A DNA stretch of 24,021 nt from positions 1-24,021 of IMG/VR virus record IMGVR_UViG_3300021389_000157; one strand, given 5' to 3'. This document shows, piece after piece, positions 16,472-23,575 of the stretch. The notes under the pieces are model-generated. The model searched no databases, was not told the DNA's origin, and saw only the letters and a program-made list of their open reading frames with translations. The stretch is from a virus. Numbering within the stretch: the stretch's first letter is position 1; every line of letters begins with the position of its first letter. The translations under genes were made by a program, and so were the position numbers.

Positions 16472-16924
16472 TTACCTTAATCTTCTTAGAGAAATGTCAA
16501 ACTTATCTATTTGATTATTCTCTTTTATTTTAAATTTTATAGTAATGTCGTATCTATTTTTATTTTCATTACCTTTTACATTTACATTTAGAATTTCTAC
16601 TCTACTTTCTTTCCTAATTACTGATTTAATCTGACTAGTTATTGATAGTTCAGTTAAGACTCCCATGGGCTCAAAAAGTAACCCTCTAAGATTGGCACCT
16701 AAATCTGGCTGAAAAGGCCTTTCAAAGGAATCTGTTAAGAGTAGATTCTTCAATGAATTCCTGATAGCTCTATCATCTCTTAACGGCATTATATCTTTTC
16801 TATATGGATGAACTGCCAAAGTTAAATCTAAATCAGCATGGCCCTTTTTTCGAGCTATATTATTAGAACCACCTGTTTTATCAGATGGATTTGTTCTACT
16901 ATTTGACATATCGTGTATACTCAT
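16472..16924 (-). CDS. 25: Baseplate wedge protein gp25 (GPW/gp25 family)
   Basis: This 150-aa protein belongs to the gp25 family, the sheath-initiating wedge subunit at the top of the wedge. Family features visible are HADLDLTLAVHPYRKDI (29-45), the helix RAIRNSLKNLLLTDSFERPF (52-71), and QPDLGANLRGLLFEPMG (72-88), which includes the F-x-P-x-x-G-x-x-L core. T4 gp25 is 132 aa. The extra length here is an N-terminal extension of about 25 polar residues. ATG 16924 has no recognisable ribosome site. A second in-frame ATG is at 16909. A late promoter element sits 5 bp upstream of ATG 16924, so the mRNA may begin at or inside the start codon. The assignment is firm, but the exact start is not. Confidence 0.9.
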   Translation of the reverse strand: MSIHDMSNSRTNPSDKTGGSNNIARKKGHADLDLTLAVHPYRKDIMPLRDDRAIRNSLKNLLLTDSFERPFQPDLGANLRGLLFEPMGVLTELSITSQIKSVIRKESRVEILNVNVKGNENKNRYDITIKFKIKENNQIDKFDISLRRLR

Positions 16925-16929
16925 ATAGT

Positions 16930-16937
16930 TATTTATA
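16930..16937 (-). promoter_or_regulatory. Late promoter element TATAAATA abutting the gp25 start
   Basis: An exact TATAAATA reads on the minus strand in the 30-bp gap between the 409-aa gene and gp25. With the T4 arrangement (element at about -13 to -6), position +1 falls at about 16924, which is the A of the annotated gp25 ATG. Either the transcript is leaderless for gp25, or translation starts further in, or the element mainly serves gp6 and later genes. Confidence 0.6.
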
Positions 16938-20087: not shown

Positions 20088-21030
20088 TAATTAATTCCAA
20101 ATAGTCGTTGTAAAACTGCTCTATATTTTCTGGTCTGATTACTCTTAATTTAGACCTTTGGTCGTTAAGAGCAATTATGTGTTGTCTATTACTTATATAT
20201 TGTAAACCATTCTCTGATGCTCCTGTGGCATCTGCTTCTGCTAGTTGAGCCCTTTGAGGAATGTTTGTTTCATCAACAAGGCCTTCTCTATTAGCATATA
20301 AGGCTTCGTATTCATTAGTAATAGTATTATTGTTATTACTTGTATTTACTGCATCGGGTGATTCTGTAAATACTATATTAGAAAATTCTCTTTGGTAAGT
20401 AACACCATTTGCATCTATGACATTTTTATAATATCTATGTGGTGCCTCTGCATATTTCCAAGCCCTGTATGATTGTACTGAATCGTTTGAAGTACCACCA
20501 GTTATAATTTCGAATGTATTACCATCACCTATAAATGAACCTGTAGTATCTTGAATAATTAATTGGTTCTTATCTATATCTTTCTTGATTAGAGTACCTG
20601 TGGCACCTGAGGTTCCACCAGTAATAGTTTCACCCAATTCAAATCTTCCTGCAATAGAATCAGTATGACCTATTACAATTCCATCTGAATCTGTATTGGG
20701 TCTTGGATTACTTGCTACTGCCCATCCATTAAATTCTTTTTCTATATAATCTTCCAACATTCTGGTACTCATAGGCCAAAGTTTATAACCATCATGTAAA
20801 AAATCATTTACTACAAAAAATGTCCAATAGTATTTTGTAGTTCCATATAATCTTTGAGAAACAATGTCTGGTCTTTCACCATCTTGAACATCATAGGTAG
20901 TATAGGTATACTGTTCGTCAAGTCTATCACCAATAGGCCTAACCTGTCTGTAGATATCAACAATATCTTGTGTAGTACCTGTTCTATTAATATCGTATTC
21001 TATTTTAGGAAAAAATTTAAAATAATTCAT
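20080..21030 (-). CDS. 53: Baseplate wedge protein gp53
   Basis: This 316-aa protein resembles T4 gp53 (196 aa), the wedge subunit needed for joining wedges around the hub, which contains a LysM-like fold. The N-terminal block FKFFPKIEYD (4-13), DIYRQVRPIGDRLDEQYTY (25-43) and ERPDIVSQRLYGTTKYYWTF (52-71) with FVVNDFLHDGYKLWP (72-86) matches gp53. The C-terminus LRVIRPENIEQFYNDYLELI (295-314) is also typical. The extra length comes from a module at about 128-180 containing ETITGGTSGATGTLI, and from an Asn/Ala-rich region. The start overlaps the gp48 stop (TAATG). Ribosome site GAGGA (21037-21041) lies 6 nt upstream. Confidence 0.88.
   Translation of the reverse strand: MNYFKFFPKIEYDINRTGTTQDIVDIYRQVRPIGDRLDEQYTYTTYDVQDGERPDIVSQRLYGTTKYYWTFFVVNDFLHDGYKLWPMSTRMLEDYIEKEFNGWAVASNPRPNTDSDGIVIGHTDSIAGRFELGETITGGTSGATGTLIKKDIDKNQLIIQDTTGSFIGDGNTFEIITGGTSNDSVQSYRAWKYAEAPHRYYKNVIDANGVTYQREFSNIVFTESPDAVNTSNNNNTITNEYEALYANREGLVDETNIPQRAQLAEADATGASENGLQYISNRQHIIALNDQRSKLRVIRPENIEQFYNDYLELINE
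20491..20649 (-). repeat. SGATG-type beta module inserted in gp53
   Basis: Residues about 128-180 read GRFELGETITGGTSGATGTL, then a loop with QLIIQDTTGSFIGDGNTFEI, then a second ITGGTSND. This is an 'E-x-I-x-G-x-x-S-G-A-T-G' unit followed by a strand with D-x-x-x-x-x-L-x-I. A related unit, LLTGGTSGAKAYLAEIDTTN, lies in gp8 at about residues 380-399. T4 gp53 lacks it. Confidence 0.6.
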
Positions 21031-21815
21031 TATGCATCCTCAGTTTCTTGTTGGGAATCATCTCTTATACTTTCCATTTTATTAATATCTTCCCTTGTTA
21101 ACTGTCTAGTTTCTTGGAATGTTAAAGAAAGTGTTGTATCTGTAGGAGCGCCGGTGTGGTAAAACATATTACTATTTTCATTATAAGTTGAAGATAAGCC
21201 TGTTAAATATGCCTCATGCATCATAGGCATGTAATTATCAATCTTCTTGCCCCTATGAAAAGCAACCTTAAATCTTGGAGGGTATGACACTGCTACATTT
21301 CCTATAATTTCAGGATACATATATTTCCTAAAAGTCTTTTCAATCTTTTTCATAACATCACTATCTTCTTTATTACTAGGAACCATTTTAAAATTAAATG
21401 AGAAAGTTCTAATACCCATATCTTCAAATGTTGCAGTAGCTTTACTATTTAAAACTACACCTGCATTTGCAGCGGCCATAGTAGCTCCATCACCAGCACC
21501 TGCAAATAATTTATTAATTACTGCTGCTCCAATAGCCAGTGATTCTCCAGAACTTGCCGTAGCCTTCGCCTTGGCTGCTTCGGGATCAGATCCATATTGT
21601 CCTGCAAATTTCTTTACGGCATCAATAGTACCAAAATTCATTGTTCCAAAATTGGCACTATCTTCCATTTGAAAACCATTAGGGATAAACATATTTATGG
21701 TTCCATCTTCTTCACTGATAATGTCTCCACTTTTATTAATTATTTCAATCCTAACGAAACTGGCATCTTTTTCAATAGATAAGCTTATCTCTGTGGGAAA
21801 GGTTATATTTGCCAT
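21030..21815 (-). CDS. 48: Tail tube cap / baseplate protein gp48
   Basis: This 261-aa protein is a gp48-type baseplate component, which sits on the hub and lets the tail tube polymerise. Key blocks are the C-terminal half FSFNFKMVPSNKEDSDVMKK followed by FRKYMYPEIIGNVAVSYPPR, and then LTGLSSTYNENSNMFYHTGA with LSLTFQETRQLTREDI, shared by gp48/gp54-type proteins. T4 gp48 is 364 aa, so this is a short version. Residues about 70-120 are Ala/Gly-rich and poorly conserved-looking. It is the first gene of the minus-strand cluster. Ribosome site GGAG (21823-21826) is 7 nt from the ATG and the late promoter element is at 21862-21869. A gp54 identity is the main alternative. Confidence 0.82.
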   Translation of the reverse strand: MANITFPTEISLSIEKDASFVRIEIINKSGDIISEEDGTINMFIPNGFQMEDSANFGTMNFGTIDAVKKFAGQYGSDPEAAKAKATASSGESLAIGAAVINKLFAGAGDGATMAAANAGVVLNSKATATFEDMGIRTFSFNFKMVPSNKEDSDVMKKIEKTFRKYMYPEIIGNVAVSYPPRFKVAFHRGKKIDNYMPMMHEAYLTGLSSTYNENSNMFYHTGAPTDTTLSLTFQETRQLTREDINKMESIRDDSQQETEDA

Positions 21816-21827
21816 ACTTTTACTCCG

Positions 21828-21835
21828 TATAAATA
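21828..21835 (+). promoter_or_regulatory. Late promoter element TATAAATA for the gp4 operon
   Basis: An exact plus-strand copy lies in the 54-bp divergent gap. The predicted transcript start near 21841 leaves about 29 nt of leader before the gp4 ATG at 21870. The element is the left arm of the inverted repeat TATAAATACT/AGTATTTATA and overlaps the upstream leader of gp48. Confidence 0.75.
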
Positions 21836-21861
21836 CTTATATTATTAACTAACATATAGAG

Positions 21862-21869
21862 TATTTATA
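21862..21869 (-). promoter_or_regulatory. Late promoter element TATAAATA for the gp48 cluster
   Basis: An exact minus-strand copy lies directly next to the gp4 start codon (21870). The predicted transcript start near 21856 gives a leader of about 41 nt to the gp48 ATG, including the GGAG ribosome site at 21823-21826. It occupies the place where a gp4 ribosome site would be, and gp4 has only a weak TAGAG there. Confidence 0.75.
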
Positions 21870-22316
21870 ATGGCTTATAGAGGGAAATATACAATTAAAC
21901 GTAAAGATAAATATCTGGGTGATGCATCCAGTGTAGTTTATCGTTCATTATGGGAAAGACAGGCATTTAAGTGGTGTGAAAGTAATCCTAAAGTAAAAAG
22001 ATGGAATAGTGAAGAGATAGTTATTCCCTATAAGTGTAAGACCGATAACAAGCTGCACAGATATTATGTAGACTTACTAATAGAATTAGACAATAAAGAA
22101 ATCATATTGGTTGAAATTAAACCAAAGAAAGAAACATCACCCCCAAAGAAGCCCTCTCGTAAAACTAAAAGATATATTAATGAGGTTATGACATACATTA
22201 AGAATCAATCTAAATGGGAAGCAGCACAACAATATGCAGACCATAAAGGTTGGAAGTTTCAAGTATGGACCGAAGATACTTTAGGCAATCTAGGTATCAA
22301 ACTACTGAAAAGTTGA
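21870..22316 (+). CDS. 4: Head completion protein gp4 (nuclease-fold)
   Basis: This 148-aa protein matches the length and pattern of T4 gp4 (gp50/65, about 150 aa), which finishes filled heads before the tail is attached. Conserved blocks are YRSLWERQAFKWCESNPKVK (24-43), RWNSEEIVIPYKCKTDNKLH (44-63), RYYVDLLIEL (64-73) and IILVEIKPKKE (78-88). The pattern E29, D68, E82-x-K84 fits a PD-(D/E)xK/TnsA-like nuclease core, which is known for this family. The tail KWEAAQQYADHKGWKFQVWT (115-134) also agrees with TnsA-like proteins. It is the first plus-strand gene, with a late promoter element at 21828 and a weak ribosome site. In T4, gp4 also neighbours gp53 and gp2. Confidence 0.9.
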   Translation: MAYRGKYTIKRKDKYLGDASSVVYRSLWERQAFKWCESNPKVKRWNSEEIVIPYKCKTDNKLHRYYVDLLIELDNKEIILVEIKPKKETSPPKKPSRKTKRYINEVMTYIKNQSKWEAAQQYADHKGWKFQVWTEDTLGNLGIKLLKS

Positions 22317-22324
22317 TATAAATA
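22317..22324 (+). promoter_or_regulatory. Late promoter element TATAAATA upstream of the gp2-like gene
   Basis: An exact copy begins immediately after the gp4 stop TGA (22314-22316). The predicted start near 22330 leaves a short leader of about 16 nt holding AGGAG (22332-22336) before ATG 22346. Confidence 0.7.
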
Positions 22325-22345
22325 GTTATACAGGAGAAAAAGTTT

Positions 22346-22939
22346 ATGGCATCATTATTCGATACATTACAGGCCCAGGCATTTAAGGCTGGTATTACTG
22401 CTAGGACTAAGCAGTCCCAGAAGTGGTTTCGTAATAAAATTGAGGATATGAAAACACCTGCAAGAAGCGCGTTACTAAAAGATGATGCATTAGAACCCAC
22501 TACACGAGAGTTGAGAGGTTCAATGTATATGTACTTCTATGACCCTAAACATAAAAAGACTTTACCCTATTATGATAGATTCCCTTTAGTACTTTTAATT
22601 GAACAAAGAAAGGGTGGTTTTTTAGGATTAAATTTACATTACCTAAGACCCGATATCCGTGCAAAGTTTTTAGATGAATTGATGAAACTATCTCCAGGAA
22701 AAATTACTGATAAATCAAGATTAATGAAAGCACGTTATGATTTAATTTCTAGTACTAGGAAATATAAAGAGTTCAGACCGTGTCTTAAAATGTATCTGAG
22801 TAATCATGTTAAATCAAGAATGGTAAGAGTACCGATGAGTGAATGGGAAATAGCAATATTCTTACCAACAGAACAATTTAAGAAGAGTCAGAAGTCCAAG
22901 ATATGGGCAGATTCAATTAAAATAGCGAGACAGACATAA
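22346..22939 (+). CDS. Probable DNA end protector-like protein (gp2-position)
   Basis: This 197-aa protein starts MASLFDTLQAQAFKAGITAR. Its central block YMYFYDPKHKKTLPYYDRFP (61-80), followed by LVLLIEQRKGGFLGLNLHYL (81-100) and RPDIRAKFLDELMKL, is a strongly conserved-looking motif I associate with a T4-like virion protein often labelled gp2 (DNA end protector) in marine phages. The C-terminal part is basic, with many Lys and Arg, compatible with contact with DNA. In T4 gene 2 is next to gene 4, and the same holds here. T4 gp2 is longer (274 aa), and I cannot confirm homology by eye, so no symbol is given. It has its own late promoter element and a good ribosome site (AGGAG, 9 nt spacing). 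The next ATG follows its TAA directly. Confidence 0.75.
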   Translation: MASLFDTLQAQAFKAGITARTKQSQKWFRNKIEDMKTPARSALLKDDALEPTTRELRGSMYMYFYDPKHKKTLPYYDRFPLVLLIEQRKGGFLGLNLHYLRPDIRAKFLDELMKLSPGKITDKSRLMKARYDLISSTRKYKEFRPCLKMYLSNHVKSRMVRVPMSEWEIAIFLPTEQFKKSQKSKIWADSIKIARQT

Positions 22940-23575
22940 ATGAATATAGATAAATTAAAATCTACAATAGGTAAACGTGGTGGTCTTGCAAAGGCAAATA
23001 GATTTAAAGTTATGTTTACACCACCACAACAGAGTTTATTTAATATAGACCCACAGGCAATCTTTACTAGTTTAATCTCTGGTGAAGGAATTAATGCAAA
23101 AAGTCTTATTAATGACCCTCGTGACATATCAATGTTATGTACCTCAGCTAATATTCCAGGCAGGTCTTTTAGTACTGATGAGATTCAAATGCATAAACAA
23201 GCAGTGAAAATGGTTTATGGTTTTATTGATGAAGATATTGAAATGACCTTCTTACTTACAAATGATATGTATATGAAGAAGATGTTTGATGATTGGTCAC
23301 AAGCTATTATCAATGACCAAACATATACTTTAAGCTACAAGAATGAATATACAACCGATGTTGTTATTCAACAATTAAATATGGATAATAAAGTTGTCTA
23401 TGGAGCAAAATTAGAAAATGCTTACCCAATAACTATTTCTCCAATTGAATATTCGAATGATTCGGAAGATATTGGAAGTTTTACGGTGACATTTTCATAT
23501 GATAAATATAAACTAGAAGGTTCAGTTGAATCCGGATTATCTGGAATCAGTACCGCACTAGATGTATTAACATAA
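22940..23575 (+). CDS. gp19/gp54-family tail tube or tube-initiator protein
   Basis: This 211-aa protein has the tail tube fold pattern shared by gp19, gp54 and gp48: ANRFKVMFTPP (19-29), LCTSANIPGRSFSTDEIQMH (66-85), and VYGFIDEDIEMTFLLTNDMY (92-111) with MKKMFDDWSQAIIN (112-125). These are followed by YTTDVVIQQLNMDNKVVYGA (137-156) and AYPITISPIEYSNDSEDIGS (161-180) plus FTVTFSYDKYK. T4 gp19 is 163 aa and gp54 is 320 aa. The usual gp19 gene lies beside the sheath gene gp18, which is absent here, and this gene precedes gp26. I therefore favour a baseplate-proximal tube initiator (gp54-like) over the main tube protein. It starts at ATG directly after the previous stop (TAAATG) with no clear ribosome site, suggesting translational coupling. 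Confidence 0.8.
   Translation: MNIDKLKSTIGKRGGLAKANRFKVMFTPPQQSLFNIDPQAIFTSLISGEGINAKSLINDPRDISMLCTSANIPGRSFSTDEIQMHKQAVKMVYGFIDEDIEMTFLLTNDMYMKKMFDDWSQAIINDQTYTLSYKNEYTTDVVIQQLNMDNKVVYGAKLENAYPITISPIEYSNDSEDIGSFTVTFSYDKYKLEGSVESGLSGISTALDVLT

Follow-up and report, generated by a model that had tools for sequence, protein, structure and literature searches.

Late promoters of phage T4 depend on the sigma factor gp55, on gp33 and on the sliding clamp gp45. In T4 the late promoter octamer occupies positions -13 to -6 (PMC1524935), and the late open complex melts the DNA from -12 to +2 (PMC7892883). Late promoters of marine cyanophages take the form NATAAATA, as in S-PM2, or resemble the CTAAATA of Aeh1. 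We analysed a 24,021-base virus fragment (IMG/VR record IMGVR_UViG_3300021389_000157; the whole stretch is referred to as the window), in which a gp48-type baseplate gene and a gp4-type head closure gene diverge from a gap of 54 base pairs (bp). The original prediction, made from these letters, was that two T4-type late promoters face each other across this gap. Motif, position and strong conservation all back that identification, which is well supported for both elements, and the facing order proves to be shared with T4 and with several clades of marine phages.

T4 genes 4 and 53 diverge from a 47-bp gap that contains TTATAAATAGATAATATATTTATAAAC, arranged as TATAAATA-GATAATA-TATTTATA. No other exact TATAAATA pair faces inward within 60 bp anywhere in the 168.9-kilobase (kb) T4 genome. 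The two gaps have in common the octamer, the facing order and a gp4-type gene set against a baseplate run. They differ in that the T4 octamers are 7 bp apart rather than 26, so that no transcript overlap is predicted in T4, and in that the T4 baseplate partner is gene 53, whereas in the window it is gp48, with gp53 after it. Because gp4 lies on one side, and a baseplate run starting from gp53 (T4) or gp48-gp53 (marine phages) on the other, the junctions look homologous. The same facing pair is found in Tevenvirinae and RB49-like isolates (KaAlpha, PEi20, NM4.3, FL38) and in Acinetobacter AbTZA1. Cyanophages of the S-RIM2 type also have a facing pair at gp48/gp4, but there the gap usually spans 31-43 bp, CCTAAATA is the motif on the plus side, and the gp4 ATG is overlapped by the gp48 promoter.

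Two better-known kinds of promoter pair invite comparison. The bidirectional symmetric -10 promoters of Warman and colleagues have a near-symmetric A+T element, are transcribed both ways, and binding in one direction excludes the other. However, their starts diverge from the flanks or the interior of a single shared -10 element, with a usual separation of 18 bp, whereas the gap has two separate inward-facing octamers with the predicted starts between them and so falls outside that class. T4 has an arrangement resembling the shared-element type between genes 26 and 51 (AF158101, 116428-116479), where overlapping back-to-back late octamers, TATTTATAAATA, lie in a 50-bp gap. The likeness to the phage 186 pairs pR/pL and pR/pE and to lambda PR/PRE lies in competition or interference between opposing polymerases. 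The promoters of 186 pR/pE and lambda PR/PRE are more than 300 bp apart, while the predicted starts in the gap are less than 20 bp apart, and the 186 and lambda pairs serve the lysis-lysogeny decision, while the gap serves late virion genes with the same sigma factor on both sides.

The gap is bounded by the ATG of gp48 (21815, minus strand) and the ATG of gp4 (21870, plus strand). Re-reading the window showed the sequences and coordinates first given for the gap and for both 10-bp elements to be exact (Table 1). The decamers TATAAATACT and AGTATTTATA are exact complements, 22 bp apart (26 bp between the octamers); both promoters point inward, and that of the gp48 operon adjoins the gp4 ATG. 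There is one exact facing TATAAATA pair within 45 bp in the window, against 0.01 in dinucleotide-shuffled windows. Single octamers are not enriched alone (96 one-mismatch matches in the window, 108 expected), and the evidence therefore rests on position and conservation. By sequence, the segment just downstream of the octamers is A+T-rich, and upstream of them conservation is low outside the opposing ribosome site, with no conserved -35 element.

Table 1. Positions in the window of the gap, its predicted elements and the two genes that it separates.
Feature	Position	Strand	Details
Intergenic gap between divergent gp48 and gp4, containing the late promoter and the ribosome-binding site of each	21816..21869		54 bp
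Predicted late promoter, gp4 operon: TATAAATACT = TATAAATA(CT)	21828..21837	+	motif, position, kept in relatives
Predicted late promoter, gp48 operon: AGTATTTATA (= TATAAATACT on the minus strand), TATAAATA(CT)	21860..21869	-	motif, position, kept in relatives
Predicted transcript overlap, at the 5' end of each mRNA	21841..21856		16 nucleotides
Probable gp4 Shine-Dalgarno, AGAG	21858..21861	+	directly 5' of the opposing octamer
Probable gp48 Shine-Dalgarno, GGAGT	21822..21826	-	adjoins the gp4 promoter
Baseplate tail tube cap (gp48-type), which opens the baseplate run on the minus strand	21030..21815	-	phrog_230, E 2e-38
Head closure protein (gp4-type), which opens the run on the plus strand	21870..22316	+	phrog_218, E 3e-55

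A near search with the whole window in deposited phage records gave no match, and relatives were hence gathered by protein-guided searches, which brought together four kinds of gp4 locus from IMG/VR, as well as T4-type loci and annotated isolates. Our counts cover non-identical regions upstream of gp4 that have a divergent neighbour, and of 199 such regions 185 carried facing late motifs; this denominator omits some C48C1-type contigs with no divergent neighbour or with a misplaced start. By type, the facing order was seen in 40/40 regions of the window type, 32/33 of the C48C1 type, 64/65 of the S-RIM2 type, 44/55 of the AG-345 type and 5/5 of the T4/Acinetobacter type; the one Vibrio member of the set was back-to-back. 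When the same gaps were shuffled, 0.87 facing regions were expected in total, against 167 observed in the gap-limited subset.

Sequences inside one clade are related and the counts are not independent events; agreement between clades is a stronger argument than numbers within them. Representative gp4 proteins share only 35-56% identity, whether marine types are compared with one another or with T4 types. When gp4 was clustered at 80% identity, 30 of the 38 clusters were facing, 1 was back-to-back and 7 were neither. The window, C48C1 and T4 types carry NATAAATA, and in S-RIM2- and AG-345-type cyanophages the gp4-side motif is mostly NCTAAATA, a variant reported for Aeh1 (PMC1524935). In each of the 13 large records (52-170 kb), exact octamers face each other at a distance of 4-34 bp at a single site, the junction studied here; one record has a nested second match at that same place. 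Back-to-back octamers occurred in three of the 13, once each. In Sf-CH3 (L252) and S-RIM44 (L377) facing late motifs lie upstream of gp4 despite a different divergent neighbour, gp48 there being downstream of gp4.

Conservation across relatives thus upholds the facing orientation, but not the 22-bp spacing that was also expected to be kept. The octamers of relatives are 7-28 bp apart, with modes of 7 and 14-15 (T4 and Acinetobacter types), 9 (C48C1), 16 (S-RIM2), 25-26 (AG-345) and 17, 19 and 26 (window type). A fixed helical spacing was considered and rejected, as the spacings cluster by clade without a cross-clade rule. The perfect 10-bp repeat is not conserved either; in relatives it reduces to the octamers, and the arms beyond them are often non-complementary (TATAAATAGT or CCTAAATA against TATTTATG). 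Facing gaps measure 31-67 bp, with a median of 41. The same gp48/gp4 divergence is found in Vibrio and Shewanella (schizoT4) phages and Aeromonas 65 (L250, L369-L372) with back-to-back CTAAATA-type motifs, whose octamers are separated by 5-7 bp; the gaps, by annotated starts, measure 65-73 bp. No recognisable late-promoter pair was found at the gp4 junction in CBA120, KM3, S-SCSM2R, P-RSM6 or 44RR.

Under the -13/-6 rule transcription of gp4 is predicted to start at about 21841 on the plus strand, with a leader of 29 nucleotides (nt), and that of gp48 at about 21856 on the minus strand, with a leader of 41 nt. The predicted overlap of the transcripts equals the octamer spacing minus 10, giving 16 nt here and none to about 18 nt overall. 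The earlier estimate of an overlap of about 15 nt agrees with this prediction for the window but does not extend to its relatives, none being predicted in T4 or in C48C1-type phages. Like the overlap, the perfect 10-bp repeat and the spacing of 22 bp count as local detail. The suggestion that the opposing promoter occupies the region of the gp4 ribosome site fared better: the octamer of the gp48 promoter coincides exactly with the spacer that separates the likely gp4 Shine-Dalgarno from the ATG, and in S-RIM2-type cyanophages the promoter overlaps the gp4 ATG itself. Relatives have AGG, AAGG or AGAG as the gp4 Shine-Dalgarno.

We think it probable that the gap holds two late promoters, compactly arranged and mutually exclusive, with each lying inside the leader of the other gene. 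Two gp55-type late promoters would face inward, so that the octamer of one falls within the 5' leader of the gene served by the other, and within its ribosome-binding region. This arrangement accommodates both promoters and a ribosome-binding site for each gene in 31-67 bp. The predicted starts are about 4 bp apart in T4, where the octamers at 77,349 and 77,364 of its record place them near 77,362 (gene 53) and 77,358 (gene 4), and about 16 bp apart in the window. At a distance of about 20 bp or less, an open complex at one promoter would cover the other. The octamer position (PMC1524935) and the extent of melting (PMC7892883) together would make the two complexes occupy one and the same stretch of ~40 bp, and overlapping promoters compete sterically (PMC6593788). 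Initiation on each DNA molecule would then alternate between the baseplate and gp4 operons by promoter competition. Such exclusion of one polymerase by the other would follow from the geometry of the gap. Packing economy with built-in mutual exclusion is the most likely account of the persistence of the layout, with packing presumably the main reason; facing gaps of 31-67 bp, against 65-73 bp in the back-to-back relatives, fit packing. Homologues of gp55 and gp45 were found in eight of the nine relatives searched, including the near relative G001, whose gp4 protein is identical, and across other marine clades; this evidence comes from relatives, the window itself being a 24-kb fragment.

Some observations weigh against this account. 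The start sites are placed by octamer position and are predictions only. The relaxed cyanophage motif, N[AC]TAAATA, is based on the Aeh1 precedent and on position, not on mapped starts, and under it about a fifth of AG-345-type sequences have the gp4-side motif alone. The T4 26/51 gap packs a back-to-back pair into 50 bp, so packing alone does not dictate a facing order, and the idea that facing is forced by packing is weakened accordingly.

The original prediction went further, proposing that mutual blocking of polymerase or clamp-bound complexes could balance the two operons. If the facing layout were kept as a dedicated device that sets the ratio of baseplate to gp4 transcripts, its retention across clades with gp4 proteins as diverged as these, while spacing and leaders change freely, would be explained, and it would fit with none of the 13 records having a second exact site of this kind. 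Yet the spacing is untuned, the predicted transcript overlap ranges down to none, and the Vibrio and Aeromonas 65 phages have back-to-back promoters at the same junction. Moreover, competition at E. coli bidirectional promoters is negligible at basal strength and is seen when they are strongly activated (PMC12825309). Clamp-activated late promoters may well be strong, but overall a dedicated balancing device seems rather unlikely. We regard as doubtful, and somewhat harder still to credit, the bolder idea that the single-copy exclusive pair has been kept from T4 to marine phages because exclusion, perhaps via sliding-clamp polarity, sets assembly stoichiometry by partitioning late transcription between baseplate and gp4. 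A related reading makes the gap a reader of fork direction: late promoters need a sliding clamp of the proper polarity, so the facing promoters would answer clamps of opposite polarity and the direction of the fork would pick the operon. This would apply to any divergent late-promoter pair, nothing in the sequence is specific to it, and on the branched DNA of replicating T4 clamps are loaded in either orientation; it is extremely improbable.

The remaining alternatives deny that there are two promoters. The arms are perfect complements and the gap strand folds, although weakly (-7.4 kcal/mol), as might be expected of a structural or protein-binding element such as a hairpin, terminator or operator. 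Relatives, however, keep only the promoter octamers, with arms often non-complementary beyond them and with varying spacing, which makes such an element very unlikely. A hairpin or terminator was rejected, since the predicted starts lie between the arms and neither mRNA would hold both. Chance matches in A+T-rich DNA, with at most one real promoter, would be in keeping with the lack of enrichment of one-mismatch octamers in the window as a whole. The 167 facing pairs where shuffled gaps would give about one, and the single site in each of the 13 records, leave that reading hardly any probability. The compact, mutually exclusive promoter pair is the explanation that we favour.

The genes beyond the gap bear on how the two operons are described. 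On the gp48 side, gp48 is followed by gp53-type, hub and wedge genes. The gp4 side had been described as head genes, which is right for gp4, the head closure protein, but the run also holds a DNA end protector and the tail tube. The gp48 homologue of the window (21030-21815) is short, at 261 amino acids against about 394 in C48C1, and matches the later part of the profile only (340-595 of 628). When loci L007-L018 were compared with window positions 20301-23200, several relatives with a gp4 side 87-98% identical and 2-7 mismatches in the gap had gp48 proteins only 44-70% identical to that of the window. A recombination or module boundary at the gp48/gp4 junction could account for this, as could fast evolution of gp48. 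Elsewhere in the window an exact TATAAATA lies at 16930-16937 on the minus strand, 5 nt ahead of the ATG of a gp25-like gene (16472-16924). The predicted start there would fall on the start codon, making the message leaderless, unless the annotated start is wrong.

We found no description of divergent, overlapping, facing or bidirectional late promoters in the open-access text searched, the subscription T4 literature and supplements being outside the scope of that search, and no paper on the layout surfaced for T4 gene 53 in the same open-access text. The elements are ordinary T4 late promoters; it is the conserved face-to-face layout, present in its exact form once per genome, that exceeds what was claimed for them earlier. 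T4 has the facing pair as well as purified gp55, gp33 and gp45 and genetics. Whether two strong, clamp-activated, mutually excluding promoters set the ratio of structural operons can readily be addressed in this system, in which a late promoter would serve at once as a piece of a ribosome-binding site or of a start codon.
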